Of a DNA stretch of 64,000 bases, positions 12,841 through 63,328 are shown one piece after another. The notes beneath the pieces were generated by a model that was not told the origin of the DNA, made no database searches, and saw only the letters and a program-made list of their open reading frames with translations. Source of the stretch: Sodiomyces alkalinus F11 (Eukaryota; Ascomycota; Sordariomycetes; Glomerellales; Plectosphaerellaceae); assembly GCF_003711515.1 (NCBI RefSeq), contig NW_021167093.1, forward strand, positions 814,077 through 878,076. The letters are read 5' to 3'. The position numbers were made by a program, and so were the translations under genes. Position 1 is the first letter of the stretch, and each line of letters starts with the position of its first letter.

Positions 12841-13373
12841 CTAACTCCTCCTTATACCCCACGAAAGGATATAGATTCTTATTAATTAAAAAAAAGGGGG
12901 GGGGTTTAAGATAATATACTTAGTATAACCGGGGTCTAGCTGTAGGGCTCTTACTACGGTACCTTACTAGCCCCGCGGGGGGCTATATAGACGCTTATTA
13001 GGCCTAGTATTAGGGAGCCCTCCTATTCTTTAGTCCGTTTCGGGGGGCGTCCTTTACCCTTATAAAAGGGTCAGTCCTAGTCCTAGGCGATAATAATCGG
13101 GGGGAAGATCTTCGGCTACTATAAGTATACCGCTTTAGTTTAATAGATAATATTAAAGTCCCTGGCTTAGTACTTATACGCTTTATAGGTTTTCTTAGCC
13201 TTTTTCCTTAGTATTCGGTATAAAGCATTAAAGGTATTATAATCTCCGGTATAGGCGGTATAGTAATAGGGGCGCCCGGGCGTTATAGTATTATAGTATC
13301 CTAGGGCTTATAAATACGCTAATTTAGGCTTAGCGTAGTAACGGTATACCCTTGCTGCTATAACGTAGCCGTT

Positions 13374-14235
13374 TAGTAGGCTATAAAAGCTAAATCCCTT
13401 ATCTCTCGCCTTAAATAGCTAGGCACCTCGGTTTCTGTCTAGTAGTGCCCCTTATACGTGGGGATAGAAGGGAACGAACTAGCGGATAAGGTAGCTAAAG
13501 GGGCGTTAAACCCCGAAAAAGCTACTAAATCCATTAGCTTAGTTACTCTTAGCCACCTAAAATGCCGGGTAAATAAAGCCCTTATTTAAGACTAGAAAAC
13601 CCTATAGAATCACGAAGAGGAGGAGAAGAAAAGAGATAACTCGGTTCGATTAGGCCGCCTATATAGGCGACTAGTCCGCGATAACCTCTATTTCTCCAGA
13701 AAATCACTACTAATATAAGGCCCTAGGTGGGTAAAATCGGCTTTTACGTAGTTAAAAACCGGCTTCGGATACCTGAGAACCCACTAAAAAAGGGCCTAAA
13801 ACTACGCTAACGACCGTTATTCCTGTCCCGGCTCCCCTATGCAGAATATAGTATACCTTATTCTTTCCTGCCCTTTTTATAAAGAAGAACAAAAAGCCCT
13901 ACGGGAAGGCCTAGCAGGCTTACCGCTATCCCTGCCGCTTTTATTTGGTACTAAAAGAGGAATACAGGCCTTATAGGCCTACCTTTTAGCTACTAAAATA
14001 GCCTGAGCAGAGTGGTATAGGGCGTAAACCACGAATCCTACGGTCTAGTTATTTTGCTTTGGCTTTTTACCTATTAGGTTTTATTAGGCAGATTATTACG
14101 GAGGATTTCCTTCGTTTAGTACGATCTATTTTACTATACCTAGTTTCTGATAGCCTTTAGCCCTTAGGGCGATAGGCGCCGCGCTATAGCTTTAGGGCTG
14201 TATGCACGTAATAAATACATAAAAAAAAGAAAAAG
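13374..14235 (+). mobile_element. LINE-2 fragment, 5'-truncated, poly(A)-tailed
   Basis: An 862-bp insert with perfect flanking 9-bp duplications GTAGCCGTT (13365-13373 and 14236-14244), ending in ACATAAAAAAAAGAAAAAG: the signature of 5'-truncated target-primed retrotransposition. The sequence is the 3' end of the family present full-length at 57102-63328 on the other strand. It retains the RNase H motif GIEGNELADKVAKGA (about 13462-13506) and a CCHC-like segment (SCPGSP, about 13826). Fewer stops than the surrounding L1 suggest a later arrival. Confidence 0.9.
13440..14140 (+). pseudogene. LINE-2 ORF2 C-terminus (RNase H and zinc-binding tail)
   Basis: The frame reads VGIEGNELADKVAKGALNP, then ATKSISLVTLSHLKCRVNKA, typical of RNase H domains of fungal Tad/I-like LINEs, followed by RWVKSAFTQ-type and GFGYL blocks and SCPGSP. 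TAG/TAA stops occur at Gln/Trp positions (for example WVKSAFT*LKTGFGYL). RNase H would remove template RNA. The N-terminal EN and RT are absent because of 5' truncation, so this piece was dead on arrival. Confidence 0.85.
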
Positions 14236-15499
14236 GTAGCCGTTAGCCTTATAACTAAAGTATAAGTATTTATAGTACTTTAATAGGCTAAGGTTGGGAT
14301 TATATAGTTCGTAGATATAGCTACGCCCCTTAAAGAGGAGGGTATTCCGGATAAGGCTTACTACCCTTTCCGGTAAAGCGAATTTAATAAGGAGAAGCGC
14401 TACCCTATTAGTACTATAGCGGGGTACTTACTATTATACTTAGAAGATTTTAGCTTCGGGATTCGTGTCTTATAAGAATACTAATAGGATTTTTTTAAAT
14501 AAGGCGTTAAGGACCTCCTAAGAGATAGCCTTAGCTAGTATAGGGTAAGTTTATATAGCTAGGGTAGCTCCTTTACTAAAGGCCTTCTTAACCTATTACT
14601 CCTTATAGGAAGTCTATTACTATATCTTTTCGGTAAAAGTATGGTAGATATCTCCGCTTAGTAGCTTCTATACCGTTACGGTGTTATATCGGGTAATTAT
14701 AGTGTTTATAGCTTAAATAATTTCCGTTAGGGTCCTAGCTTTAAGGGGCTAGTCTTCGGGGAGGGTTCCTTACTAGACGATTAGTTCCCGGTACTACCTA
14801 ATAGAGATTATTTTAGAGGGGCGGGGTCCCGCGGCTGTACCGCTATAGGAGCCTAGGCTATAATATTAGCCTAGGTCTCTTTTATGCGGCTTATTCTTTT
14901 TCGGAGTTCCTTATAGATAATATAGCGGATAGAAGCGTATAGGTATACTAATAGTCTTATACTAGCGTTATTACGGGTATTACGTATCGTGCTTAATTCC
15001 TTTATTAGTTTTATAACCTACTTAATCGTATTCCTATTAGCTAGTAAAGCCTAAATTTCTGCCTTAATCTTAGCTATTCTTAATTCCGGGGGACGCGGTA
15101 ATTCCCTCTTAGTCTTATATCGGTTCCGCGCTATATCGTACTTCGAAAGAGGGGGGAGCGCTTATATTACGAAAAGTGGGTCCGCTACGTATTCTATATA
15201 GTTAAGGTCGGAATAACGCTATCTTATAAAGCGCCACGATTTTAACACGCCTATTAACCACGGGCGCGTAATAGGAGTAAAATCGATAAAACTATTAAGA
15301 TAGAGATTATAACTACCGCCTCCCTCCCAGGATACTAGTATAGCGGCACCGTAACACTAGCGCTATAGTATAGCCGGAAGAATTATAGGATAGTGTTATT
15401 CCGACCTTAACGATATAAAACTCGTAACGGATCCACTTTTTATAATATAAGCGCTCCCCCCTCCCCCTAAGGTAGGATATAGCGCGAAACCGATATAAG

Positions 15500-25644: not shown

Positions 25645-26696
25645 TAAAAGGAGACTACCTATTATAGCGATACCCACGCTATTAGCGGCCTTAGCTATTA
25701 TATATACTAAATAGACCTTTATAAGGCGTTACTCCTACTTCTTAGTAGCGGGAGGGACTTATACACCTATTAGACCTAACTACCCTAGTATCCAAATAGC
25801 ACCCGTATAGTATAAGGCCGACTTATATCCTTACACGGACGCCGGCTATTAGTATAAAAGTATATAGCACCTATACCCGTAATATCAGAATAGGCTTTAA
25901 CGTTATTAGGTTATAGCACTAAACGCTTACTATAACGTAGGCACCTACTATATAGTAACCGATATAATACTACCTCGATACCGTAAAGCTATATACACAG
26001 TATAACGCGGGTTATATATACCGCGCTTATAGCCGCGGTTATTATTACTAGGAGGTATTTATAGTAATTAGTGCCACGACGGCAGGCCTATAAGACCGTA
26101 GGCGGGAACGTAATAAGGAATACCTATAACGAGTTCTATAGCGTTATAGGAAGGAAAAGAGTAAAAGGAGGAGGACCTTACCCTCTATTAACTATCTACT
26201 ATTTTTACGGTTGTAGACGGAGCCCTGCCCTACCTGCCTACCGCCAGATATAGTAGGTACCCCCCCCCCCCCTAAGGGAGGCAGGAACGCCTACCCTACC
26301 TTTTCTCTTTATTAATTAAATAGAAGGAATAATAGGCATAGTCCCCGGGGATATAAGGACGCCGGATATAGCGTGCCGTGGCCGCTATATAGCGGAGACG
26401 CCGCGGCACCCTTTTAGCCCCCGCCCTCTTATTGACGACCGACCTAGGCTAACCTAAACTATAGCCTACTACCTTTCCCGTTAGCTACTAGCCTAAAGGT
26501 AAAATCCAGATATATAGACGAGACGAACCGGGGCTATATCGGCCCGGTAGCGGCATTACTGTAACTAAGGATAAGTGTAAAGGTTTTCTCCGGGATCCCG
26601 GGTTTTCCCCTTTATAGCTACTCGAGAAAGACGGTATATTCTAAACTAGGCTCCTATAGATTAGATAGGATAACGGAGTAAGAAGAAGAAGAAGAA

Positions 26697-27073
<377 letters not shown>

Positions 27074-27371
27074 TTTCTTTTTAATATATATATATAGCCC
27101 TAAAGCTATAGCACGAGTCTATTAAGGAGACTAAGCCTATAACGAGTATCTAGTTATTTATATAACCTATATATAAAAGTAAAGAATAGGCGAACTAGAG
27201 TTATTAGTCCGGGACTTATCCTTAAGTAGTGGTGCTCGCTCCCTAGAGTTCTCTAGACCCTAGGGCTTAATCGCAGGTATAGTATATATATAGGCGCGCT
27301 TAATTACACGTAATAGATATATACTCTCCTACCCCTAAGGGGGGTATATACTGAAGGAGGCAGTATAGTTC
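27074..27371 (-). mobile_element. tRNA-derived SINE, 3' part (minus strand)
   Basis: Read on the minus strand this is the 3' two-thirds of a ~480-bp SINE. It ends in TTAAAAAGAAAAG at the 8-bp target duplication GCGGCACT (27066-27073 and 32917-32924). The 3' end contains GCTATAGCTTTAGGGCT (rc of 27098-27114), identical to the 3' end of LINE-2 at 14183-14199. After it the SINE has ATATATATATATTAAA where LINE-2 has GTATGCACGTAATAAA, almost exactly the RIP-converted form. Element B splits the SINE at 27371/32728. Confidence 0.75.
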
Positions 27372-27700
27372 ATACGACCACGATTGGCAGGTACTATACG
27401 CGCGTATAGATCCCGCGGCACGGACCCTATACGAACGTATAGCCCTAAGCCATCTGCTCGTTTAGGCCGGAGCTATACGTCCGTATAGATCCGGAACTAT
27501 ACGTTCGTATAAGAACCGGAAGATAGATAGTCTAGGCCCGCCGAGGATATATATCCTTGGCGCTATTCGCCCCTTAGTTTGGTAGAAGATATCTTTATTC
27601 TACCCTTATGTACTAGAGTAAAGGTCACCCTTTTAAACCCTAGAAGCCCTAGGTCCAATAGTACTAGCTAGCCAGGGATTTACCTAGATAGGGTATATTA
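27372..27700 (+). repeat. Element B left LTR (329 bp)
   Basis: Starts ATACGACCACGATTGGCAGG and ends GGGTATATTA. It differs from the right LTR almost only by C/T and G/A changes, as RIP would produce. It contains several short palindromes (TATACGCGCGTATA, TATACGTCCGTATA, TATACGTTCGTATA) about 50-60 bp apart. Confidence 0.88.
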
Positions 27701-27751
27701 AATAGTAGTAACTACGCTTTTAGTTAAGGTTCGCAAACCGCCGCCCGGCGC

Positions 27752-28330
27752 GGACTACGTATACTAAGACCAAGTAGGCATGTGGTTCACTAGTAAACGC
27801 TAGTATACTAGGCGTAGCCGCTCGGCGCGGGCTACGTATACTTAGACTAAACAGATATATAATAACTAGCGGTCGCTATCGCGAACTATATATACTAAGA
27901 CTAAACAGATCTATAGTAACCGGCGGAACTATATAACCGCTAGCGTACTAGGCGAAAACGCCTCCCCTTTAATAGGTCTAGGCGTAAAGCCGTAAAAGAA
28001 TTCACGGTCGCTAGTTTAGCGTAGGAATAACGCCTATACTAACCTACGTACTAGCACTATAGATCCTAAGCTCCGACCATAATAACCTTCCCAACGATCG
28101 CTAGTCGTCGTAGGCAACTATACTATGCTATACCGGCGCTAACCGTTCTTAATAATTGCTGAAGGGCGTAGGATAACGACTATACTATTCTATACCGATA
28201 ATAACCTTTCTAATAATAGGTAAGGTTCGCGTACCGCCGCCCGGCGCGGACTACGTATACTAAGATCAAATAGACACGTAGTACTAGCGGTCGCTATCGC
28301 GAACTACGTATACTAAGACTAAACAGACAC
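27752..28330 (+). repeat. Five-copy 31-bp repeat and ~300-bp direct duplication
   Basis: Units resembling GAACTACGTATACTAAGACT followed by AAACAGACACG occur at about 27752, 27829, 27891, 28248 and 28301. They sit within a larger duplication: 27725 to about 28060 resembles 28213 to about 28450 (shared GGTTCGC, ACCGCCGCCCGGCGCGGACT, AACCGGCGGAACTATA, GCCTCCCC). Location just inside the left LTR suggests leader or packaging sequence; the function is unknown. Confidence 0.8.
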
Positions 28331-28917
28331 GTAATAACCGGCGGAACTATACGACTGCTAGCGCGCTAAGCGAAGACGCCTCCCCTGTAATAAGTCTAGG
28401 CGTAGAGTATTAGGAATCCACGGTTGCTAAATACGGAGGGATAACGACTATACTAACCTATATACTAGCACTTACCGTGGATCGACCCCGAGCTCTAAAA
28501 GCTTCGATAACTATCCTCCCCTCTACTATAGCACCGAGCTACTCGATAATCCCCCCCCTTTTCTTTTCCCCTTTTTCCCGCGGAGTATAAGGGGAGCTAA
28601 CCTCCCCTTACCGTAAGCTTCCCTTCCTCTATACCTCGCGGAGAATATTTTTCCCTCTCCTTCTTATAGCAGAGTAAGCTACCCCGCTCGCTATCGTTCG
28701 ATTAGCTATTAATATACCAGGAATACCCGAGGCCAGCGGAGTAATAACCGTAAAAAGAAGATCACGGAACTAGTATATCCGTGCCTAAAGGCCACGTTTC
28801 CTAAAAAAAAGGCATACTCTAGCCACTCACTATAGCACCCTAGGAATAGCTTAATCGCGAGCTATAGGCTTTATTACCGGACTACTAAGGTCCCCTCGGC
28901 CAATTCCCCCTAGTAAA

Positions 28918-29115
28918 GGAGGGCTTCCCCTTATTCGATTTCCCCTTACTCGACTCGCCTTTAATAGATAAGTTTACTAAGAGAGCTAGCTATTCCTATA
29001 GCTCCCTTTATCGGATTTACCCCAAGTTCCCTTAACTTATTCTCCCTATTAGAGGGAGGGCTTCCCTTTATTCTACTCGCTTTCGACTCGCCTTTAACCG
29101 ATAAGTTTACTAAGG
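28918..29115 (+). repeat. ~62-bp direct repeat pair in element B
   Basis: 28918-28981 and 29055-29115 share GGAGGGCTTCCCTTTATTC, CGACTCGCCTTTAA and GATAAGTTTACTAAG, with a short internal difference. No coding sense was found. Confidence 0.75.
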
Positions 29116-29402
29116 CGACCCTTATCTACGGGCTATAGACGTATACCGCCGGATTAGGCTTCGTCCTTACCTTAAGCGCTCTAAGCTTGGGAACCGGGTA
29201 ATCCGCCGTGTCTATTATTTCCAACTAGGACCCTAAGCTCCTCCCGGATAACGCCGTAGAAGGCCGTGGTATTATTCTCGGATTCTCTACGGCGTAATAT
29301 CCTTAGACGGCTAGACGGCCTATTAAGTAGAAGACCCGGTAACACGATAAAATATCGCGGTTTATTATCTCCCCTTAGCGTATCTCCGTCGTTTCATAAC
29401 GT

Positions 29403-29490
29403 ATACTCCTTTCCTTTCCTTCCTTTCCTTTCCCTTCTTATCTTTCCCTTCTTACCTTTCCCTTCTTACCTTTCCCTTCTCTCCTTTCTA
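29403..29490 (+). repeat. Polypyrimidine tract, 15-bp repeat units
   Basis: An uninterrupted pyrimidine-rich strand built of CCTTCTTACCTTTCC-like units. It encodes a low-complexity Ser/Phe/Leu/Pro run in one frame, which I regard as incidental. Purine/pyrimidine asymmetry of this kind can adopt triplex structure or act as a polypurine tract on the other strand. Confidence 0.75.
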
Positions 29491-29649
29491 TTATAAACAC
29501 TATTACCGCCCACGGTTACTAAGTAATCACTGTACGGCGCTACCTTATTTCTATTCCCCGCTAAAGGATGCCCGCGGGATATAGGGCTTTTATCGCTTAG
29601 GGTAGACACTTATAGATAAAAGCCGTTATATAGCTAAAGTTCGATTACC

Positions 29650-32000
29650 GCCGGGGAATAGCGAGACCTATATAAGCACCGTGAGAATAAGGTAACCCTA
29701 TCGCGAGAGATAAAGTTAGCTACGGATTAAGCACTTAGAAAGAATAGCTAGCTTACCGGAATAGGTAGATACTAGAAGAAGCTATAAAGGCTAAGCGACG
29801 CCTTTAAGGAAACGATAAAAGACCTTAGGTGACCTAAGGATAGCCTTAAAGAAAGTATAGGTTCCAATAGTGCTATAGACAGGAAATACTAAAAGAACCG
29901 ATAGGTGAAAGAATACTGAAGGCAAAGAACCTTTAAGAGGCTCTAGCACGGCCTTATAGCCTTATTAGATATCGAATAAGGAACCCGAGTTACCCGAGGT
30001 AACCACGCGCTATATATATATAGCGAACGGCCTCGAACTCGGGTAAGGGAAGGTATAAGGGTTATTATCCGATCTCCGAATAGTAGGCACACGAAAGAAG
30101 AATAAAGCGGAATAATAAAAATAATATAAACCGCGACGCTCTACTAGATCAGGCCGCTTACCTAACCGATTATAAAATTCTTCTTATACCTAATATTCTA
30201 GCCGACCTTCTCCTATTATTTACTATTATAACGGCGGTATTCGTTAATATCGACTAGAACTTATATCTTTGTTTCCTCTAGTAGTATTTCGCGCTATCTT
30301 TTACTACTCCACTAAACTATCCCTATTATAATTTCGATATATTATGTATACACCTTTTATACTTCTTTTATACCCTTTTACCACGCTTACCTACCTAATA
30401 CTATTTATAGCTTAGTGGTATATTATAGAGTACGTATCTACTGTTAATAGATCTAAGGATATAGTATTTAAATAGTAGTTCTCTAAGTACTTCCACTAAG
30501 GACGCACGGGCGAAGGGCCACCCTTTAAAGGGTACTTTCGCGCTATTATACTATTTAGTAATAAGAGTTTACTTATTATTAGGCTATCGATATCGGGAGC
30601 CGCGTTCCGGGCTTAGCGCCGGGAAAATAAGGAGATTATCGCTAGCTACCTTAACCGGGCTATCGTATTAGATTACGATAACCCCCTTCCTTAACTAAGC
30701 ACTCTGTTAGACTATCTTCGCCCCCGCGTTTAAGGTAAATAGGATAATTAAGATAGATAACGCTAAAATATTAGCTTTAATCTACCCCTAGCCGCCGTTT
30801 TTACTCGACTATAATTATAACGTATAGAGCTAAACTAGGCCCGAGTAGATATTCGAGTAATACTTAGCTAGTATATCCCGCTATAACGCACTATAAGGAC
30901 TAAATAGCCGTTTCCTCCTAGACCCGCTATCCGCCTCCCACGGTACTAATCCGGCCACGCCTTAGAACTAGCGCGTAATTAGTGTACTTATATCGTTTCC
31001 CGCCTAGTTAGGTATAGGCGGTATTAACACGGCCGGCCTATTATTACCCGCCGCTATTCCTATAACGGACAGAATAATACCCGGCTATATTCTATAGGTG
31101 ATAAATAAGCTAGCCTACCTTACACTTAAACTAGTAGATACGGTAGAAGTTTATTATAAAGGCGATGTTAACGAAGCCACCTTCCTAGCTAAGACCGGCG
31201 ACTATAATAGTCTTATTAAGAGTCGCGCCGCGTCTATTAAGTAATTTCTTTAGTCTACCGCCTAAAGAACTACGCTAACTATTCTACGAGCCGTCGATAT
31301 CCTTACCTAGCTATATTTAGGTATAGCTAATAACGCTACCTAGACCGCCTCGCTAATAACGAATACTACTCCTTCTAGTAATACTAAAGACTGTACTAAG
31401 ACTATACTAGCTCCCCCGTAGCTAAGCAATTCTTTTCTAGACCTAGCTAGGAAATAGTCTGCATATAGGGTTATAAGTATCTCGCTAAGCGTCTATTCAC
31501 TCGTAACACGGCGTGTATATATAAGGACTTCTTACACGATAGATAAAAACTATTAATACTCTTATAGCGCGGGTATAGTATAGTACTCCCTGCCCTAGTA
31601 GGACTATAGGCCAGGAACTTTATTAAGGACTATATTATCCCGAGTAAGGTGTAGAATAGTATAGGACTACTATTCCTACTCTTACTCTAGCGTATAGAAG
31701 ACACGACCTAGTTTACCGTACTCACCACTAATAACAATATAAATCCCGGTAAGTATACCCGAATAACGGATAGGTTTACTAAGCACTATATACACGCCTA
31801 GGACCTTATCCTCTACACCACTATTATCGCTAAATACTATAATAAGGCAGGTAATAAAGGCCTTATCTCGTTATATAACCTCGACCGGACCGAGCTAGAT
31901 AAACGCGTGGTAAAGATTACCACGGTAGATATCGACGACATGATTAAGGTCGACGAAGAGTATTAGGGCTTCCCGGATAAGGAGACCGAGCTTATATAAG
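29650..32000 (+). pseudogene. Unrecognised coding-like frames of element B
   Basis: At least two readable plus-strand frames interrupted mainly by TAG/TAA: about 30905-31480 (for example INTAGLLLPAAIPITDRIIP at 31021-31080 and TVEVYYKGDVNEATFLAKTG at 31140-31199) and, in another frame, about 31500-31998 (for example KAGNKGLISLYNLDRTELDK at 31846-31905, ending DKETELI). A frameshift seems to separate them near 31480. No conserved retroelement catalytic motif is visible. The frame ends some 400 bp before the right LTR, as in element A. I do not recognise the protein. Confidence 0.4.
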
Positions 32001-32398
32001 TGGGGAAAGTATAAGGAGTAAAGGGTTATAAAGTATAGAGTTTATTTAGAATTAGCATATAAGGAGGAAAAGATAGCGTATAAGTACGCTATCGTAAATA
32101 GATGTATAGGTTATATTTAACGGTTTAGGTAACACGGTCGGTTCTTTACTTTTCTTATATTTTTGTATCTCTCTTTATATTACTAGATTCGGGTATTAGC
32201 GCCGCTATAAATATAGTGGAGGCCCGTAGATACGGTTTAGCTCTATAGGCCCTATTTATAGTCTTCCTCTTTTCCCGTTTCCCTTTATTATAACTAACAC
32301 CTGCCCGTAACAGTCGCCTAGCGGTAACTATAGGTAACACGCGCAGGTACGTAGGGAACGCCCATAGGACGTAGGGCTCTTTTTGCCCGGGGTATATA

Positions 32399-32727
32399 AT
32401 ACGACCACGATTAGCAGGTACTATACGCGCGTATAGATCCCGCGGCACGGACCCTATATAAACGTATAGCCCTAAGCTATCCGCTCGTTTAGGCTAGAGC
32501 TATACGTCTATATAGATTCGGAACTATACGGTTGTATAGGAACTGGAAGATAGATAGTCTAGGCCCGCCGAGGATATATATCCTCGGCGCTATTCGCCCC
32601 TTAGTTTAGTAGAAGACATCTTTATTATACCCTTATATACTAGAGTAAAGGTCATCCTTTCAAACCCTAGAAGCCCTAGGTCCAATAGTACTGGCTGGCC
32701 AGGGATTTACCTAGACAGGGCATATCA
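32399..32727 (+). repeat. Element B right LTR (329 bp)
   Basis: The same length as the left LTR, ending GGGCATATCA. Immediately inside it (32376-32398) lies GGGCTCTTTTTGCCCGGGGT followed by ATATAA, shared with element A at 8263-8286. Read on the plus strand this contains a TATA-like box; read on the minus strand it occupies the primer-binding-site position. Confidence 0.88.
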
Positions 32728-32916
32728 ATAGTTCCACTTATTAGCGCGTAAGCTAATATAAATATCTCCCCGAATGTGCGGGGACCCCTATAACGTGCAG
32801 GAGCTCCGGGTAGGTCGCGCGCGAATTAAAAATTCGCGTACGATTAAGGGGAGTAGGATTCGAACCCAAGGCCTTACATAGCCACTAGGCGTGACTATCT
32901 ATACTATCCCCCTACG
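32728..32916 (-). mobile_element. tRNA-derived SINE, 5' part (minus strand)
   Basis: Minus-strand 5' third of the SINE: a tRNA-like head (32848-32912), then a body with two strong hairpins, CCCCG...CGGGG (32768-32783) and CGCGAATTaaaAATTCGCG (32820-32838). The first 7 bp (32728-32734) are the duplicated target of element B. Removing B, the SINE and one GCGGCACT rejoins LINE L8 collinearly with L6. Confidence 0.75.
32848..32912 (-). ncRNA. tRNA-like head of SINE with internal Pol III promoter
   Basis: Read on the minus strand it begins GGGGGATAGTATAGATAGTC and ends GGTTCGAATCCTACTCCCC. GGTTCGAATCC (rc of 32856-32866) is a perfect B box, TAGTATAGATAGT resembles an A box (consensus TRGYNNARNGG, the terminal GG degraded), and the ends can pair as a 7-bp acceptor stem with one wobble and one mismatch. 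At 65 nt, with only a 4-bp anticodon stem, it is unlikely to be a working tRNA. The anticodon cannot be assigned safely. Confidence 0.7.
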
Positions 32917-33823
32917 GCGGCACTATAATAGGGCAGGGGCGATATAACGGCCCGGTTATTATTAAATAAGGGCTTTATAAGCTACGACCCCGGTAGTATT
33001 AAAGCGGCACTAATACTATACTACTCCTTATCGTTATTCTTTTTACCTCTCTTAGAGGCACTAATCCTATTATCGGTATACTTAAGACCCTAGGATAATT
33101 AGCTGGCTCTATACTATAAAAAGGCCGTAAGGGAAGCTTAGTAGCACTACGTATAAAGTAATCTAGCAAAATACCCGCTATACTCTTTATATATTATAAT
33201 CAGCGCGTTAGCTCCTATATCTCTACCGATAAGGTGCCGCCACGGCTATAACCGGAAAGTAATGCCCGAGAAATAGCCTACACAGAAGGTAAAGCCGCCG
33301 TCTATAAGCGCTCCTTAGCCTATAGATTATTAGCATAGCTCCACTATAACACCTAAAAGGGACTACTTACAATAATAACACTATTAGTCCTAGCGGTCTT
33401 AGCCGTTATATAACCCTAATAGATCTTTATAAGGGGTTACTACTACTTTGTATTAGCAGGGGGGACCTATTAACCTATTAGACTAAACTACCCCGGTACC
33501 CTAGCGATGCCTTTATAGTATAGGGATAACTTATATCCTTACATAGATATCGACTCTTAGTATACTAAAAGTATATAGTACTAATACCTATAGTATTAGT
33601 ATAAGCCTTGATATTATTAGGGTAAAACTCTAGACGCTTACTATAACATAAGTAACTACTATATGTTAGCTACTATAATACTACCTTAATACTACTAGGG
33701 TCTATATATAGTATAATATAAACTATACCTCGGTTATAATAACGGTTATTACTATTAGGAGAAGGTATCTACGACTATTAGTATACTACTACTAAGGTAC
33801 TACTATATTATAAAGATACTTAT
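32917..33823 (+). mobile_element. LINE L8, end of ORF2 and 3' UTR (truncated by L4)
   Basis: AGGGCAGGGGCGATATAAC and GGGCTTTATAAGCTACGACC match the end of ORF2 and the 3' UTR start of L6 (53070-53120). Collinearity continues to about 33823, where the (ATT)n tail of minus-strand L4 begins. The last ~800 bp of UTR and the tail are not found on the far side of L4. Confidence 0.78.
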
Positions 33824-41220: not shown

Positions 41221-41507
41221 TTAGTCTTTTATCGGTTCCGCGCTATATCCTGCCTTAGGGGGAGGGGGAGTGCTTATATTACGAAAAGTGGGTCCGTTAC
41301 GAATTCTGTATAGTTAAGGTCGGGATAATACTATTCTATAACTCTTCCGGCTATACCGTAGCACCGGTATTACGGTACCGCTGCGATAGTATCCTAAGAG
41401 AAAGGCGGTAGTTATAATCTCTGTCTTAGTGGTTTTATCGGTTTTACTCTTATTACGCGCCTATGGTTAGTGGGTGTGTCGAAATCCAATCGAGTATATA
41501 ATTAACT

Positions 41508-41518
41508 ATTAGTATTAG

Positions 41519-41607
<89 letters not shown>

Positions 41608-41648
41608 GTATTAATATTATTATAAGTATTATTATTATTATTAGTAAT
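41508..41648 (+). repeat. (ATT)n microsatellite, left half of an interrupted array
   Basis: Array of ATT with regularly spaced AGT interruptions (TTAGTATTATTATTATTA units of about 18 bp). It lies between the 5' ends of L4 and L5. A similar array with the same AGT interruptions lies at 45938-46063 on the far side of L5. Poly-Ile/Leu reading frames through it are not genes. Confidence 0.9.
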
Positions 41649-41939
41649 ATCTTCGCGATATAGCTTCGAACTAAAATATCGACACGCCTATTAACCACGG
41701 GCGCGTAATAAGAGCAAAATCGATAAAACTCTTACGATAGTGATTATAACTACTACCTCCCTCCCAGGATACTATTATAGTGGTACCGTAATACTAGCGC
41801 TACACTATAGCCGGAAGAGTTATAGGATAGCGTTACCCCGACCTCGATTATATAGAATTCGTAACGGACGTACTTTTCGTTATATAAGCGCTCCCCCCCC
41901 TACTTATAGCAGGATATAGCGCGGAACCGATATAAGACC

Positions 41940-44233: not shown

Positions 44234-45935
44234 TATTAATAGGGGTCCTATAAGCCGGGACCCCGGCGGTATTAGCTCGGCGTTAGGGGGGGCTACTAGT
44301 GGCTACTAGCTATTATCGACCTAGTTATTATCGTCCTTGTCGTCCTTGTCGTCCTCGGTAGCGCTAATACCACTCTCGATATATTCTAGGCCCTATTAGG
44401 ACAGGTTAGCTAACTACCGCCACTATAATACCGTAGGGAGACTGAAAAGGGGCCACTTATAAGGTACTCCAGAATAAGGTCTATCTTACCCTCTAAACGT
44501 CTTATCTAATAAGATAATTCCTATACCTCCGCCGATACGGGGCCACCGCGGCTATAACCGGAAGGTAGCGCCCGGTTTAGGGCCCGGCTAAAAAGCCGGG
44601 ACGCTGTCCCTAAACGCTCCTTAGCCTATAGCTTATTAGTAGGGGACTACTTCGGCACCGAAGGGGGAGATATATAGTAGCGATACCGTTATTACCGGCG
44701 GCCTTTACCACTATATACGCCCTATAAAGATCTATAAGACGCTACTACTATTTTTTAATAGCGGGGGGGACCTAAAGGAAAATTAGTATATACCACCACG
44801 ATATACCTGCGGTACCACGACGATATCGACACGACTTATATCCTTACACGGACGCCGGCTATTAGTATACTAAAAATAAGCTGCCCCTATACCCGTAGTA
44901 TTAGAGCAGGCCTCCACGTTATCCGGGTATATACCCAGGCGCTTACTATAACGAATATAACTGCCCTAGGTTAGCCACCACGGCACCGCCCCGATACTAT
45001 TAGGGGATATATACGGTATAACCCGAACCGAGCCCTTCTTATACCGGTTACGATTATTATTAGTATTATTATTAGGAGACGATATCTACGACTATTAGCA
45101 CGCTGCTACTAAGGCACCGTTACGCTACTAGGAGAACTTATATTATACTACTACTACCGCTTAATTATTTATATATATAAATTAATACTATACTACCTAA
45201 TTAACCCCACGCCACCACGCTACCGCGGCGCTACCCACTAAGCACTTATAGTCTAGTCATAATAGGAAAATAAACGAGGGAAACTAAAGGGTTTTACTAG
45301 TAGTATAGAGCCGTAACGATAAGCCTATAGCACTAGAAGCAGGAATAGATTAGGAGAAAACCTATAACGAACTCGTTAGCATTATAGGAGGAAGAGAGAG
45401 GGAAAAGAGGCACGAAGACCTTAAGGGATATTAACTATCTAATTCTATAATAGGGTAGAGCCCTATTCCCCTTACCTACCGCCGGATATAGCAGGAACCT
45501 ACTTAAGGGAGGCAGGAGGCGCCTGCCTCCTTTACTCTCTTTATTAACCGAGTAGAAGGAATAAAAGGCACGATCCTCGGGGATATAGGGAGGCTAAGGC
45601 TAAAGGGCCGTAGCCTCCGCACCGCGGAGGCGCGGCGGCACCCCCTCGGCCCCTACTCCGTCGCTAATAATCGGCTTAGGCTAACCTACCTAACCACTAG
45701 CCTACCACACTTCCCGTTAGCCACTAGCCTAAAGGTACGATCTAGATATATAGCAGAGATAAACCGGGGCTATATCGGCCCCGTAGCGGTATTACTCCAC
45801 CTCAGGAAGTGTATAGAGGTTTTCCCCGGGTTTTACCCGGGTTTTCCCCCCTATAGCTACCCGAGAAGGACCGTATAGCCTAGAAAGGCTCCTATAGATT
45901 AGTTAGGATAGCGGAGTAAGATCGATAATAATAAT

Positions 45936-45937
<2 letters not shown>

Positions 45938-45967
<30 letters not shown>

Positions 45968-45988
45968 GTATTATTATTATTATTATTA

Positions 45989-46027
<39 letters not shown>

Positions 46028-46032
46028 GTATT

Positions 46033-46063
<31 letters not shown>
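45938..46063 (+). repeat. (ATT)n microsatellite, right half
   Basis: ATT array with AGT and ATC interruptions immediately after the AAT tail of L5, continuing to LINE-3. The inverted polarity relative to the L5 tail shows that it is not the L5 tail itself. Confidence 0.88.
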
Positions 46064-46065
<2 letters not shown>

Positions 46066-47400
46066 CTTTTTTTTCTTTTTCTATATCATAACAGGAAAAG
46101 GGGAGAAGCCGAGCGGAGTACTAAAAGAACTAGCTAGTAAGCAGGCGTAGTGCTTATATATCGTTACCGGCGCGTATCAGGCTATAGCTATAAAGGTAGT
46201 AAAGATAAAGGCGGGGGTCCCCCCCCTTAACTTATACTATAACGCCCTAACCGCGTAAGCGGTGCTATAAGTAAAGGGCACCTAGATAGAGTAAGCGATA
46301 TTTTAGGTATAACGAGTAGTCGAAGCGGCTACGTAGCGTAGAAGATATAGGGGAGGGGTTAGGCCTTACCTAAGGTCCTAGAGAGCTTAGAAATAGGAAA
46401 TCAAGTCCTAGCTCCTTAGGAGGGAACTAGCCTAGCGCCTTCAAGAGGAATAAGCGTACCGGTAAAAGCGTACCTCGCTATGCTAATATAATAGCGTGGC
46501 CGTAGCGTGGACGCCCTAGCTTAACCACATAGCGTTTAGGGAGTATAAGGGCCTTATAAAACTATAGAGTTCTATTCTTACCTAGATCCCAATAAAGAAG
46601 ATAGGCCTTTATTACTTCCTTTTTATAAAAGGCGTACCGGATATGGCGATACTACGTTCTTAGTACGCCGATAAAGGGCCGGAGATAGCGGAATATATCG
46701 CGTTATAATACCGGGATATAGTAAGGGAGATATAAGAGCGCCTCGCGGCCGATATAGGCGCGCGCCTACTAATAAAATAGGACTAGCTCTTAGCGCTCCG
46801 GAGTAAGGAGATTATAGGGAAGGTCGCGAAATAGTTCCTATAAAGCGGGCGCTTTCCGGACTTCTAACTAGCACAATAACTAGAATCGGAGGCGTAGTAA
46901 AGCCCCCGTAGCGCTAAAACCTCGGGTAAATATATAGGAGAGGTTAAAGATAGCTACGAAGAAGATAAGTAAAGGGAGAGTAAGATATTTATTAATAGCC
47001 GCTATACAGCTACGCTATAATCACGCTATAACCCGCCTATGTACTCCTCCTCCTTATTATCTATATACTTATCCGACTTATTATTATTATCGGACCCAAT
47101 TACTCTACTATCTACTAGGATAACCTTATCCTCGGCCCTACCCTTATCCTTAGTAGTAAAGGTAGTAGGGTCTCCCGATAATAGGATAGGGATATTCTAC
47201 GATACGTATTAGTAGCGGGGTCGATATAGGAGAGGCGCCGGGTAACTTATAAGGTAGGCGAGGATAGCCTTTAATATCTCGCTATTACGGGTTAACCCCG
47301 ATATAAAGGATCCGGCTATACTCCGGATCTTCCTAACTATGCACTTAGTTAACGGACCTATATCGCCTAGTTATCGCCACCTTATAGCTAGCCTAGCGCT
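46064..47400 (+). mobile_element. LINE-3 fragment, 5'-truncated (third LINE family)
   Basis: Contains only the RNase H and C-terminal part of a non-LTR ORF2, distinct in sequence from the L family and LINE-2. It begins after the (ATT)n array; the downstream edge is not defined and is somewhere between the end of the coding region (about 46975) and Gypsy gag (about 47560). No poly(A) or duplication was identified. Confidence 0.65.
46093..46975 (+). pseudogene. LINE-3 ORF2 C-terminus (RNase H and zinc-binding region)
   Basis: Frame reads CLYIVTGAYQAIAIKVVKIK, then AGVPPLNLYY (about 46150-46245), the conserved block that in L6 reads CLWLIAGAYKATPVRVLE. Further on, IKKIGLYYFLFIKGVPDMAI (about 46593-46652) and EIAEYIALQYRDIVREIQER (about 46682-46741) match the C-terminal Cys/His block (usually CxC...HxxxxC) with its Cys lost to Ser/Tyr. 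Stops are TAG/TAA. EN and RT are absent. Confidence 0.75.
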
Positions 47401-57101: not shown

Positions 57102-57259
57102 TTTTTTTTTTTTTTTTTTGATTCATCACGCGCATACAGCCCTAAGACTATGGCGCGGCGCCTATCGCCCTCAGGGCTAAAGGCTGTTAGAAGCCAGGTA
57201 TAGTAAAATAAAGTCTAATAGTAATAAGTGAAGGAAATCCTCCGTAACAATCTGCGTAA

Positions 57260-60200
57260 TAGACCTAATACGTAATAAACCAAAGCAAAATAACTAGACC
57301 GTAGAATCCGAGGTTTACGCCCTATACTACTCTGCCGAAGCTATTTTAGTAGCTAAACGATAGGCCTGTAAGGCCTGTATTCCTCTTTTAGTACTGAATA
57401 ATACCGGTAGAGATGGCGGTAGGCCTGCTAGGGCTTCCCGCAGGCTCTTCGTTCGTCTTGATAAAAAGGGTAAGAAATAATAAGGTATACTGTATCCTGT
57501 ATAGGGGAGCCGGGACAGGAACAGCGGTCGTTAGCGTAGTTTTAGGCCCTTTTTTAGTGGGTTTTAAGGTATCCGAAGCCGGTTTTTAACTGCGTAAAAG
57601 CCGACATTACCCACCTAGGGCCCTGAGTTAGTAGTGGTTTTCGGGAGAAACGGAGGTTATCGCGGACTAGACGCCTATAAAGGCGGTCTAAGCGCACCGA
57701 TTTACCCCTTTTCTCCGCCTCTTCTTCGTCGTTCTATAGGGTTTTCCAGTCTTGAATAAGGCCTTTATTTACCCGGCGTTTTAGGTGGCTAAGGGTAACT
57801 AAGCTAACGGATTTAGTAGCTTTATCGGGGTTTAACGCCCCTTTAGCCACCTTATCCGCTAATTCGTTCCCTTCTATCCCTATATGCGAGGGGAACTACT
57901 ATATAGGGACCGAAGTGCCTAGTTATTTAAGACGTAAGATAAGGTCTTTAGCTTCTATAGTCCACTATAAGAAGCGCTAAAGCTTCTAAATAGCCGTCTA
58001 TAAATCGCTAAAAATATAGTAGTCTAGGGGCCTAGGCGACTACTCTAGGGCAGCGTAGAGGGCCTGAGGAATAGCGTATAATTTAGCGTCCGCGACTTCG
58101 GCAGCGGCCCCTAGATTAAAGCCTATAGCTTTACAGGGCCTCCTAGTATCAGTCTACTATATCACGGCGGCTACAGCCTATAGGGGACCTATAAGGGGCC
58201 TAGTAGGGTAGCCTAGGGAGCCGTCGGTATAGAAAACAGTAGCCTATTCCGCTAGGCCTTATTAAATTTCAGCGCGGGCTTCGAGGTAGGCTATCTTCTA
58301 ATCGGGTATATCGGGGCCGGTATCTATTACAGGCCGGTCTTTAAAGGGGAAAAAGGGTCTTAAGTCCGCTGTAGGCTCCGAGGCCTAGGGGGCCTCCCAC
58401 CTAGCCGACGGACCCTTGATATCCTAAGACTAACCTACTAAAGCCACCGTTTTTCGGCCTAGCCTATATAGCTATATAGTAGGCTATAGGCTCTAAAGAA
58501 GGGCGAGGTTTTAGTTTTTATCCCCTAGCTGCCTTTAAACGCTAGCGAGGAGCTGGCGTTTAATAGAGTAATTCGGGAGGAATTTTAAGGTCCTAAAGGC
58601 ATATAGCCTATTAGACCTAGTTAACCGAACTGCTACTGGGGGAACTACTGCTTCGAGTTCTAAAGGCCGTAAGGGGGCCCTCCTAAAAGCACCTAGGGCG
58701 CTGACTAGAGCGCCGTATTATAGACGTTCTAGGCGGTCTACGAGGTGTTTCTTCGGTGATTTAGGGTCCTACTAGAGCTACGAGCCAAAGTCAGCTAAAG
58801 AGGCTATACAGGCTATATATAGCTACCGTAAGGCCTTAAAAAAAAGGCTCCTCTACGAGCTAGCTAGCCTATATAACCTGTTTAGGGCCCCTAATACTAA
58901 GTTTAGGCGTTTTTCGAGGTGGGGTTTAAAGGATAGCTTAGGCTTAAACTAGACCCCTAGCCACCTAATAGCACCTAGCGCAGGTTTAACTAGGTGCCCC
59001 CCTATAATGACCGGAGCGTCGTTTGTAGAGCGTCGTCGGTGGAAGTGAATAAGCTCTGTTTTTCGGTGGTCGAAAAGGACTTAGTTCACTTTTACTGCGT
59101 CGAAAAGGGAGGCTACGGCTTTTTCTAGGGTTTTATAGTTTTTCCTAGTCGACGTAGACGCTATAGATAGCTAAAAATCGTCGATATAGGATAGCTAAAG
59201 CCCCTAAAAATCCGGTCCCGCTATAACCTTCCTAATATATATTAGGAATAGAATAGGGGAAACCGGAGAGCCTTATAGAACCCCTATATTTAGAGGGGTA
59301 GGCTACTAAACCTGCCCCTCGAAGGCTAGTTAGATACGCCTATTTTCTATAAAAGAGACAACCCATTTAACTAGGTTCGGGGGTAGTTAGAGGTCTTAAA
59401 GGGTCCTAAGTAGCTAGGGACGGGCGACGTGATCGAAGACGCCCTTAATATCTAAAAATAGCGTAGAGATCACAGGACTTTAGCGTGATTTACACTGTGG
59501 TTCGATATAGTAGAGGAGGAGAAGGGCTATATCGATAGCGGATCGTTGACTTCTACCCCCTATTTAACTAGGGTGTAAAAGGTCATCGCGGGTATTAGCT
59601 ATAAAGCTAAGCCTAGCAGCTATAACCCTTTCGAGTACTTTACCTAGGCAGTTTAGAAGGGCTATAATCCTATAAGACTTAGGATCTAAATAGTCCTTCT
59701 TCCCTGGCTTCGGTAGAATAACCCCGAGGGCTCCTTTCTAGCAGGTAGAGTGGTGCCCTACGGAAAAGAGTACTAAGTAGGCCTATAAAAAGGACCCGGG
59801 AATAGCCTTATAGGCCTATTAGATCGATTGTAAACCTATCGTATCAGGTCCAGGGGCTTTCCCTTTAGCGGCTCCAAAAATCGCGCATTATAGCTCTATA
59901 GCCTATAGGCTAGGCCACTCCCACGGTCTTCTAAGGCCCTTACTGCGTGATCTAGTCAGGCTCTAGGGACCTTAAGAAGGGTAGGAGGGGCCTAGGCCCC
60001 CCGAAGGGCCTATAAATACAGGGGCTTCGGGGGCGACGGTGGTGGAGAGTACTAGAAAAAGTGTCTAAAGTAGGGCGTTATATTTCTCTTCGAAGGTATA
60101 GGCCTTCTACTTCGTAGGTATTTGAATCGGTGGGATTTTTACGTTAAGACCGCTCTTCGTATAGTGATAGGCCTTAAAATTCTCGGGGCCTTCGGCGTAG

Positions 60201-61390
60201 GCTAGGAAGGCCTCCTAGTAGTCGTTTTTTACTATTTTAACTGCCCGATAGTAGACGTTTCGAGCTTCTTTCTAGGAGGCTTCTAAGGACGTCTAGGTAG
60301 CCGAGGCCCCCTTTTTTACCTTTCGAAAAACCTTAAAGACCCTGCTAGCTACTTTTCGCAGGGCTTTTAGTTCTTTAGTCCACCACGGCTTCGAATATTC
60401 TACTACCCGTAACTTAGGCACTAAAGCCTTAAGCGCTAGGGTAATAGTATCCGAGAGGCAGCGGCCTAAAGAATCCTAGTCCGAGGCGTTAATAGCCTAT
60501 TAAAGGTGCAGGTTAAGGCTAGATTCTAGGCTCTTTAGGGTACTAGAAAATAGGTTCTAATCTGCTAGCTTATAGTTATAAGCCGGTAGGAGGGATCTAT
60601 TTATAGGACCTTTAAAGCCTAAAATAGTAGCCGAGAGTAGGATAGCGCGGTGTAAAGAGGTAGTATTTTCGATATATTCCCACTTATAGAAGCGGAGATA
60701 ATCGAAGCCGGGCGTGTAGCAGGCTAGGTTTATAACCGACTCTTAACGAAGATTAGACCTAAAAAAGGTCCCCCTATTCAGGTTAACTTCTTTAGAATCC
60801 ACTAAATAGGTAGCTCCGAGACTATCCAACTAGTCTACTAGAGGCTAGGCCCTAATAGAAGCCTGGTTAGTAGCCGCTCCGTTCCACTGCTAGTGGTTTC
60901 TATTAAAGTCCCCTATAATAAGGGTAGGCTTAGGGACTTACACGTCCTATAGCACTCGATCCTTAGTCTAGGGCCGGCTTCTAGGGCCTAAAAAGGAAGG
61001 GAAAGAATAAGAAGAAGAAGTGGAAGAAGTGGAAGGGGTAGGGCTAGAGGGCCGCTCTCGGCCTATCGTTTCGGGGTCCTATTGTATCTAATTATAAACG
61101 TGTAGAATATAGAAGGTCTATAGATAATAAACCTCTATAATCTACGCGTCTATATTATCTAGAAGGTCTTCGCGATATAAAAAATCGATACTAAAGCCCT
61201 TTCTTATATAAGAGAGGACCCTAGGCTTAATAGAGAAGAACTAGGATTTTTAGGATATAGGCGTAATAGTGTAAAAAGTAGGGTGGTTTCGGATAAACTA
61301 TCCCTTTAGTATCGAGACGTAGGCAGGTCCCTGAATAAGCACTATATTAGCCGAAGCCTCTAAAGCCTATTCTAGGATAACCTCCTATAC
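57260..61390 (-). pseudogene. LINE-2 ORF2 (endonuclease, RT, RNase H), broken
   Basis: Endonuclease: GDFNRNH*QWNGAATNQASI (rc of about 60860-60925). RT catalytic box LSYIDDF (rc of about 59170-59195) keeps both Asp, unlike the L-family copies. RNase H: GIEGNELADKVAKGALNP-type block (rc of about 57820-57885), followed by RLYRRLVRDNLRFSRKPL and a terminal SCPGSP. It is the target-primed RT enzyme; its substrate RNA would include any SINE carrying the LINE-2 3' end. TAG/TAA stops at Gln/Trp make it inactive here. Confidence 0.87.
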
Positions 61391-61399
61391 CGGGGACTA

Positions 61400-62912
61400 T
61401 TTATCGACGTTATATTAAATAAACCGGATATCTTTCGAACTAAAAGGCCCTTTATTCATAGAATCTAGGGTTTTATAGCTCGAAGAACCTTATAGTCTCT
61501 ACTAAAGGGGGGGTGCTCTCCCTTATAGTTATAGCACTTATAGGTCTTATACTCGTAGTCTCCGTATTCTTCACACTCGTTATAGTAGTAGTATTCCTCC
61601 CCGTAGCCTTCGACGGCGCAGATAGGGCAGGTAACTAGGCGTTTATAGGTCCCGCGGGTATACCCGAATTTCCAGTAGTTAGAGGACTAGGTTCTAGGGG
61701 TTATAGGCCTATATTTATAGACCTTTAGCCGCTGGGCGGCTATATAGAGCCCCTGTTTTAGGCAGTACTTCTATTCTTTAGTGGAGGGCATAGAATTAAC
61801 CACCGTGCCGTAAAACGCATTTAGAGCCCCTAGCCACCGAGGCTTCCCTACTACCCTAATAGGGTTAAAGGTGCCGATTTCGGTGGCTAGGTCCTATAAA
61901 CCTAGGCCCTATTATAGGCTTCGGTTTAGGGCCTTTTACGGCGGCTTAGAAGGGTCGGGTGGAGGGGTATCGCCACTCCTAAAGGCTTTAGAAGGCACCT
62001 ATTTAATAATAAGCTTAAACTAGTCGCCTATAGGCTAGGGGGGCTAGAGAGGGAGGTTTAGCTCTTTAAACCACTAATTCTACGAGTCTAGGAGCTATTA
62101 AACGCTATATTTCGGCCCCGGGGTCAAAATAAGGTTCCCGTTAGTTAATAGACTAACAGCCGTAACTACAGGGGTTTTTAAGGCCTTATTTAGCCCGTTT
62201 CGGAGCTTAAGAGGATTAAAGTCTTCCCGGGGAATCTAGGCCCCTGCCGTGGGTTAAAGGATAACCTTAGGGACCATTTTAGGGTCTACTAGGAGGGGTG
62301 CCGGGGGGGTCTAGGCCGAAGGTGCTAGGGCCCCTGAAATAGAGGCCTAGGGAGCTATAAGGCCTTTTTTCCCCTTTAAAGCCTCGCTGTAAAGGGGTTT
62401 GGGCTGCTATTCTATAAGCCTACGAACTGCCTAGGCTAGCTTATCGACCTTCTATTCGAGAGTAGGGGGCTAGGAGGCTTCTAGTACACCGTCGATAGTA
62501 GATTTAAGCCCTACGGATAGGGCTTTAATCTAGGGGGCAGGGTCGAGGGTATAGGCCTATTAAAGTAGGTGAAGGGCCTATTAGAGTAGTTCCTTAGCCT
62601 ATGCCTTACTAGCCGATTTAGTCGACTTCTAGGGCTCGGCCGAGGTTTCTCCAGGGGCTTTAGCTGTTCCAGGGGCCCTTTTAGCCTATTTAGAGCCTAA
62701 AAGGCTCGGTTTTTCAGCAGGGGGGCCCTAGAAGCAGGGGGGGCCCTAGAGAGCGTTTCGAAAGCGCCTTCGGCTTCCGAGTCCGAGGGGGATTCGATTC
62801 GGGTCCTAGAAAAACGTCTAGGGGTAGGTATAGAAGGGCTAAGGTGCCTTTTCGAATTTAGAGGCGTAGCGAGGGTTAAATCCTCTGTATTAGAGGTATT
62901 ACCTATATCCAC
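61400..62912 (-). pseudogene. LINE-2 ORF1 (RNA-binding, zinc knuckle), broken
   Basis: Starts MDIGNTSNTEDLTLATPLNS at 62912; the first 71 codons are open (to 62697) before the first TAG. The N-terminal region is Ser/Pro/Glu-rich (RRFSRTRIESPSDSEAEGAF). A central region of Ala/Leu-rich sequence is followed by the conserved C-terminus FGYTRGTYKRLVTCPICAVE (rc of about 61610-61670) and KCYNYKGEHPPFS (rc of about 61495-61535), a knuckle with one Cys to Tyr change typical of RIP. The function is packaging LINE RNA. The start is chosen because it is the first ATG of the open stretch after a non-coding leader. Confidence 0.82.
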
Positions 62913-63328
62913 CTCCCCTAGGCCCTCTATAGTTATAGGGGCCTTTGAGGGGGGGGCGTTAGGGGCATTAGGGGCGTTATTATAGCTAGTATTATAGCTG
63001 GTGGGTTATTGTTTATAGCGTTAGGGCCGGGTGGAGGTCGGGGGTACGGCTCTGCGCGGCTAGGCTTACTGCTTTATCAGCGTGGGCGCACGGGCCACGT
63101 CAGACTTTTCCCCCGCACGCGGGGGAGCCGTAAGCCCATTTCCAGACATTTTCGCACTCAAAATACGCCTTAATTAGCGCCTGCGCGATACAGGGCTATA
63201 GATAGGCATATAGAGCTTAAAAAGAGTTATCGATTGATATAGGGTTTGAGTGGTTTAGGGCGTTTACGCGTAAAACGTACGTCCCCCTATATGAGTTATA
63301 AAAAGCCTCGTTGTACTCCGGGTTTACC
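62913..63328 (-). promoter_or_regulatory. LINE-2 5' leader (probable internal promoter region)
   Basis: About 415 bp between the 5' target duplication and the ORF1 ATG, G/C-rich near ORF1 (CCCGCACGCGGGGGAGC, about 63112-63128) and without a readable frame. LINE 5' leaders normally carry an internal Pol II promoter; no specific box is claimed. Confidence 0.4.

Follow-up and report, generated by a model that had tools for sequence, protein, structure and literature searches.

A tRNA-derived SINE family of Sodiomyces alkalinus that shares its 3' end with LINE-2, its probable partner

We analyzed a 64,000-nucleotide stretch of the genome of the fungus Sodiomyces alkalinus F11 (assembly GCF_003711515.1, contig NW_021167093.1, positions 814,077 to 878,076; hereinafter, the window), which contains, on its minus strand, a short repeat unit split in two by an inserted element, denoted element B. 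This dispersed, non-coding unit is, very probably, one copy of a family of tRNA-derived short interspersed elements (SINEs) that carry the 3'-terminal hairpin and A-rich tail of a long interspersed element, LINE-2, and were moved by LINE-2. The copies combine a tRNA-related head and the LINE-2-like tail in one unit and are found as many insertions with differing target duplications, and the 3' end that they share with LINE-2 is predicted to form a hairpin; LINE-2 itself encodes a reverse transcriptase. An earlier note on the window had interpreted the unit as a tRNA-derived SINE with the 3' end of LINE-2. The genome-wide evidence supports this interpretation; mobilization by LINE-2, which the note also proposed, is what we likewise infer.

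A split repeat unit and its copies in the genome

When read on the minus strand across element B, the window SINE spans 476-480 bp. The unit and its parts are as follows.

27062-27073, no strand: left copy of the SINE target duplication, TATAGCGGCACT (12 bp), read by eye
27074-27371, minus strand: 3' part of the SINE (body, LINE-2-like tail and A-rich end)
27087-27115, minus strand: 3' hairpin common to the SINE and LINE-2, from folding and tail comparison
27096-27112, minus strand: 17-nt core identical in the SINE and LINE-2, from sequence comparison
27372-32734, no strand: element B, inserted in the SINE between its 3' and 5' parts, with direct terminal repeats (27372-27706 and 32399-32732) that are 91.9% alike
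32735-32912, minus strand: 5' part of the SINE (tRNA-related head and body), with the 5' end defined by the target duplication and by aligning the copies of the family
32845-32912, minus strand: tRNA-related head, which lacks 3 nt relative to the usual form of the family, assigned on the basis of the tRNA matches of other copies
32856-32866, minus strand: B box GGTTCGAATCC, exact in the reverse complement, read by eye
32895-32906, minus strand: A-box-like sequence TAGTATAGATAG (majority form of the family, TAGCGTAGGTGG), read by eye
32913-32924, no strand: right copy of the target duplication, TACGGCGGCACT, differing from the left copy by transitions at 2 of 12 positions

The repeat GCGGCACT, noticed previously, indeed flanks the SINE on both sides (27066-27073 and 32917-32924). 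Because this flanking repeat extends to 12 bp (TATAGCGGCACT/TACGGCGGCACT), we set the end of the SINE at 32912 instead of the original 32916; the limits of the 3' part (27074-27371) are retained. The heptamer ATAGTTC is repeated at the edges of element B (27365-27371 and 32728-32734).

We searched the entire assembly (43.4 Mb, 22 contigs), with the copies labeled by L numbers. The 182-bp head gave 40 scored matches among 61 candidates, of which the best 30 (29 non-window loci and the window copy) were fetched. Among the 29 non-window loci, 28 match nearly the whole joined unit, with similarity that begins no later than position 20 and ends no earlier than position 463 of 480, so the two minus-strand pieces are, as previously proposed, one repeat copy; in the remaining locus (L020), the similarity stops at position 270. 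The alignment of the 28 loci with the window copy starts at GGGGGGATAGCGTAGG and ends with GTATACACGTATTAAA followed by A-rich letters, and the flanks differ from copy to copy. Excluding the A-rich end, the 29 copies are 437-497 nt long and have no coding capacity, with the longest stop-to-stop stretch of 47-126 codons. They comprise at least two subfamilies, of approximately 466 and 483-497 bp; six copies (L002, L011, L014, L015, L026, and L030) are distinguished by another middle portion, which is longer by about 25 bases. The closest pair is only 93.7% identical (median of 85.8% across the 406 pairs), so there is no very recent copy among these 29.

Pattern searches of the whole genome detected 48 heads, on 9 contigs, and 57 SINE-type tails with at most 3 mismatches (none in the control). 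For 35 of the 48 heads, a SINE-type tail follows on the same strand at a distance of 410-483 nt, and none of the 48 has such a tail on the wrong strand. Thus, instead of a solitary copy or of heads and tails residing in separate units, the search found many copies with differing target duplications in which the tRNA-like head and the LINE-2-like tail belong to one unit.

For each of the 36 copies with both ends available, the 5' flank was compared with the sequence that follows the tail, and their best direct repeat was scored as the target duplication. A score of at least 9 is reached by 21 of these copies (10-17 bp by script, mostly, 10-14 bp), compared with 1 of 180 mismatched flank pairings. 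The duplication of the window SINE scores 6 on this strict scale because 2 of its 12 positions differ. To line up the insertion points, 21 copies and the window copy were taken, with L021 lost, leaving 21, and with some boundaries trimmed by hand. Reading toward the duplication, T is found in 13 copies at the third base before it, A in 14 at the second, and T in 16 at the adjacent base; the duplication itself starts with A in 17, a count that is inflated because the A-rich tail can lend an A. In L015, a SINE lies within a LINE-2 copy, and the LINE-2 alignment repeats 11 positions around it, identical to the scored duplication; a second, internally deleted SINE is located in the same LINE-2 copy, at a 9-position repeat. 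SINEs inside or adjoining LINE-2 sequence were observed in L015, L008, L011, and L004.

The tRNA-related head

The perfect B box and the A-box-like sequence described in the earlier note are both present in the window head, as read against the consensus sequences of the two boxes. The Rfam tRNA model (RF00005) scores above its cut-off in 13 of 20 copies and below it in 3, with no match in 4. Of the 29 non-window loci, 21 are read by ARAGORN as containing a tRNA, the anticodons differing from locus to locus. In the head of the window copy, no tRNA is found by ARAGORN, and none by Rfam up to an E value of 5; the only two Rfam matches in the window are to microRNA families, far below their cut-offs. 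Because the window head itself is unrecognized, its tRNA identity rests on the other copies.

Assignment of a tRNA isotype from the ARAGORN anticodons was dropped, given that the copies disagree (Thr, Ile, Gly, His, Ser). The head was compared with 40 tRNA genes of this genome, picked from 63 scored of 1453 candidates, a set in which some isotypes are missing. Within this set, the 17-nt T arm of tRNA-Leu(CAG) matches the SINE head without a mismatch, and the next-best tRNA has 2 mismatches. In local alignment, tRNA-Leu(CAG) scores 41, the runner-up 32, and the best shuffled sequence 28 (n=300); in global alignment, an Ala gene scores 63 versus 62 for Leu. The sequence comparison suggests that the source was, probably, a tRNA-Leu gene, a likely but not settled origin.

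Directly after the head, at 32820-32838 in the window and at the equivalent position in other copies, there is an inverted repeat with a T run on the SINE sense strand. Its middle is highly variable between copies, and it could be a candidate terminator for RNA polymerase III (Pol III).

LINE-2 and the shared 3' end

LINE-2 is represented in the window by the following features.

13374-14233, plus strand: 5'-truncated LINE-2 copy with an A-rich tail, with GTAGCCGTT on both sides (13365-13373 and 14236-14244)
14180-14208, plus strand: LINE-2 3' hairpin, the counterpart of 27087-27115, from folding and tail comparison
57105-63305, minus strand: long LINE-2 copy with many stops; it retains the remnant of a zinc-knuckle-like ORF1 (by eye) as well as endonuclease, reverse transcriptase, and RNase H-like regions

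The identity of 17 nt between the SINE and LINE-2, as described in the earlier note, is exact, and its position in LINE-2 (14183-14199) is right; in the SINE, it occupies the reverse complement of 27096-27112, two bases to the left of the position given then. The adjoining 16 bp contain 6 differences, of which 5 are, in line with the earlier description, G>A or C>T changes in the LINE-2 to SINE direction and 1 is A/T. In other copies, the shared 3' end is longer and comprises approximately 37 nt before the A-rich tail, as exemplified by L047 of SINE subfamily B, which ends with CGCGCTATAGCTTTAGGGCTGTATACGCGTATTGAAT, and by L041, a LINE-2 that ends with CGCGCTATAGCTTTAGGGCTGTATGCGCGTAATGAAT. 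Over its final 45-56 nt, a segment that takes in the A-rich tail, LINE-2 matches SINE copies with E values down to 9e-12, in a small database.

For the window copy taken alone, where only 17 nt are identical, one could think of unrelated repeat fragments that share these letters fortuitously. By a hand calculation with equal base frequencies, the expected number of occurrences of a given 17-mer in 2 x 43.4 Mb is about 0.005, a figure that rises in AT-rich DNA. However, when up to one mismatch is allowed, a 20-nt tail pattern occurs at 174 places (93+81), compared with 0 for the reversed control, and heads are linked to tails in 35 of 48 cases, so a chance match, the probability of which is vanishingly small, was rejected.

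The first 30 listed of the 174 tail places (L031-L060), a non-random sample, consist of 15 SINEs and 15 LINE-2 copies; several of these SINEs are already among L002-L030, and L035 and L037 match in the 3' part only. These data bear on another possibility, namely, that a genuine tRNA-derived SINE was moved by some other non-long terminal repeat element, the tail being that of a wider or lost LINE group with the same 3' end. Diverged LINE-2 subgroups (L038, L042, L043, L044, L058, and L059) keep the tail core, so that one of these subgroups, or a relative since lost, may be the exact partner, and the SINE tail has the A/T difference from LINE-2. Conversely, every one of the 30 tail places examined is either a SINE or LINE-2, and LINE-2 is abundant, with 196 LINE-type 3' ends at up to 3 mismatches (control, 0). 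We therefore consider a different partner to be unlikely and LINE-2 to be the favored one.

Of the LINE-2 copies, only the one in the window at 13374 stops at that point, and 17 others continue upstream. Accordingly, the interpretation of LINE-2 as a short element of 860 bp, suggested by 38 of 40 matches that start at its first base, was rejected. For the long copy, the 5' limit is the start of the similarity to L004 and L007; the similarity to L011 starts 8 bases later. Remnants of two reading frames are discernible in this copy (57105-63305). When it was translated with X at the stops, the domain search detected an endonuclease (PF14529; 1.8e-6, 28.2 bits with a cut-off of 27.4), a reverse transcriptase (PF00078, RVT_1; 4.9e-22), and, weakly, RNase H (PF00075; E value of 0.0054, 17.4 bits, under the cut-off of 25.8); the zinc-knuckle-like ORF1 piece has no match to a Pfam family. 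LINE-1 and R2 proteins are among the 10 matches of the LINE-2 protein in the PDB. Among the 120 listed of 339 matches to LINE-2 relatives, five come with an organism name, of which four are fungi, presumably, all ascomycetes, and one is labeled as a bacterial assembly. These relatives and the RIP-like composition described below would, by themselves, point to a fungal genome. Tad1 is the usual fungal LINE group with the domain order endonuclease-reverse transcriptase-RNase H, and the domain order of LINE-2, as predicted from its sequence, suits a Tad1-like element.

Two LINE-2 insertion sites were read by eye: L050 has the duplication AAAAGCG(C/G)TTAG after TTTTAAAT, and GTAGCCGTT at the window copy (13374) is preceded by TATAAC. 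In the diverged subgroup listed above, the 3' region is approximately 79-80% like that of the window copy, with the tail core kept. Within L040 (1246-1900), two 5'-truncated LINE-2 3' ends are arranged head to tail, the second beginning at the A-rich tail of the first.

A predicted hairpin common to the SINE and LINE-2

Single-strand folding predicts one 3' hairpin in LINE-2 and both SINE subfamilies. We evaluated it on 59 tails (40 SINE and 19 LINE-2; 53 distinct, with identical tails counted once and 10 'other' matches excluded) that were selected by similarity of the core (at most 3 mismatches), a choice that favors pairing within the core. In this set, 86.4% of the cells are paired, and the paired cells, the both-side changes, and the covariation score are above those of all 500 shuffles. 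The stem pair (-1,23) is T-A in all 27 tails of subfamily A and C-G in 9 of 13 tails of subfamily B and 16 of 19 tails of LINE-2. Conceivably, LINE-2, as a putative Tad1-type element, might read its template by the shape of the hairpin and not by the letters alone, and the SINE would have kept this shape while its stem pair shifted between U-A, seen in subfamily A, and C-G, seen in subfamily B and LINE-2. Such stringent, structure-based recognition is a tentative proposal to which we assign somewhat less than an even chance.

A putative route of mobilization and its difficulties

Pol III would transcribe the SINE from a 5'-terminal promoter made up of the A and B boxes. Because the 3' end of the SINE RNA would carry the LINE-2 hairpin and A-rich tail, the LINE-2 reverse transcriptase would accept it as a template, with the LINE-2 protein taking hold of the RNA through its terminal hairpin. 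An AT-rich target would be nicked, tentatively, between TAT and A, and target-primed reverse transcription would follow, yielding target duplications that are mostly 10-14 bp long. The family would have spread as at least two subfamilies and decayed by mutation resembling repeat-induced point mutation (RIP); at present, it is presumably inactive. The window copy would have been split by element B at a later stage. With high probability, we regard the family as tRNA-derived SINEs with the LINE-2 hairpin and A-rich tail that were moved by LINE-2.

Several observations weigh against this account. Partners at the set spacing are missing for 13 of the 48 heads and 22 of the 57 tails; these unpaired heads and tails may be truncated, interrupted, or beyond the mismatch limit. 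The duplication score is below 9 in 15 of the 36 copies, including the window copy. The target motif is weak: the A with which the duplication starts can be a letter of the A-rich tail, and manual trimming set some of the boundaries. For LINE-2, the target site is readable in two copies only (13374 and L050), with none found for L052, and a script search of the long window copy gave no clear target duplication. With regard to the hairpin, two of the five measures do not exceed the shuffles, namely, the count of pairs with changes on either side of the stem at once (3; as high in 412 of 500 shuffles) and the count of pair types (10; 487 of 500). In addition, 1 of the 11 pairs is unformed in 41 of the 53 tails; when the partners are shifted by -2 and +2, pairing is still 55.4% and 66.4%, respectively; and the compensated pair (-1,23) is one inherited event made of transitions. 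Transcription of the SINE and its movement by LINE-2 are themselves predictions, drawn from sequence.

The main loose end of the model is a run of at least 5 T, approximately 80 nt into the element, directly after the tRNA-related head, in 20 of the 29 copies, which could end Pol III transcription early. The T run may have arisen or grown after insertion, or the polymerase may read through it. Being ill-suited to a long Pol III transcript, these T runs would favor spread by a DNA mechanism (as a miniature inverted-repeat transposable element-like unit or by segmental duplication) or via Pol II RNA, with the tRNA resemblance playing no role. However, the 5' end of the SINE coincides with the tRNA start, the 3' end is A-rich, the duplications vary in length and sequence, and a SINE is inserted inside a LINE-2 copy (L015), and we consider these alternatives to be very improbable. 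Retroposition of a tRNA-derived SINE by LINE-2 is the account that we prefer.

Known SINE/LINE pairs and significance

The earlier note held that a SINE with the tail of a partner LINE would be notable in a RIP-active fungus; the case is less unusual than that because such pairs have already been published for fungi. In the part of a review that we consulted, Mg-SINE with MgL/MGR583 and SINE2-1_BG with Tad1-24_BG are listed as fungal SINE/LINE pairs (PMC3747384). Compared by description, Mg-SINE/MGL of Magnaporthe grisea is similar to the pair described here in that a tRNA-derived fungal SINE has the 3' end of a LINE of approximately 6 kb; the section consulted describes similar 3' ends in the two elements, with molecular mimicry as the supposed means by which Mg-SINE captures the MGL machinery (PMC2104539). 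SINE2-1_BG/Tad1-24_BG of Blumeria graminis, as far as it is described there, is likewise a fungal tRNA SINE with a Tad1 LINE tail. AfuSINE2-1a of Aspergillus fumigatus, again by description, is a tRNA-related SINE with a LINE-like 3' part, which, in the excerpt available, resembles the 3' untranslated region of I-1_AF, a Tad-clade LINE (PMC5063351); the similar part there is positions 210-335, whereas here it is approximately 37 nt and the A-rich tail.

For plant SINE/LINE pairs, the same part of the review reports hairpin-forming 3' ends with compensatory changes (PMC3747384). ZmSINE2/3 and LINE1-1_ZM of maize, a pair of the stringent type, have, per that text, a related 3' end of approximately 50 nt, a hairpin, and compensatory changes (PMC3747384), all of which resemble the situation here. 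The maize partner is an L1-clade LINE, with several compensatory changes in the pair; in contrast, LINE-2 has an endonuclease, a reverse transcriptase and, probably, RNase H, and there is one clear compensated pair.

The pair described here is a well supported addition to a known fungal kind. It joins the few fungal pairs (we found three) as a well-documented one, and the composition of its genome is strongly RIP-like. With dozens to hundreds of copies of each partner in one assembly, the use of the tail, the turnover of subfamilies, and the mutation of repeats of approximately 470 bp become directly comparable, and the compensated pair makes the hairpin testable as a recognition signal of a fungal LINE.

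RIP-like composition and a neighboring repeat

RIP occurs in Magnaporthe. Judged by the thresholds usual for RIP indices, the composition of the window, the SINE copies, and the LINE-2 3' ends is RIP-like. The TpA/ApT index is 1.85 in the window, 1.77 in the SINE copies, and 2.09 in the LINE-2 3' ends, and the respective values of (CpA+TpG)/(ApC+GpT) are 0.27, 0.44, and 0.45. In subfamily A, transitions account for 492 of the 621 differences from the majority sequence. The C>T changes in this subfamily are not confined to CpA: the base that follows is G in 50 of them, A in 44, C in 34, and T in 10.

On the 3' side of the window SINE, there is a long AAT-type microsatellite (26679-27007), and similar arrays are found at approximately 41497-41650 and 45925-46080.

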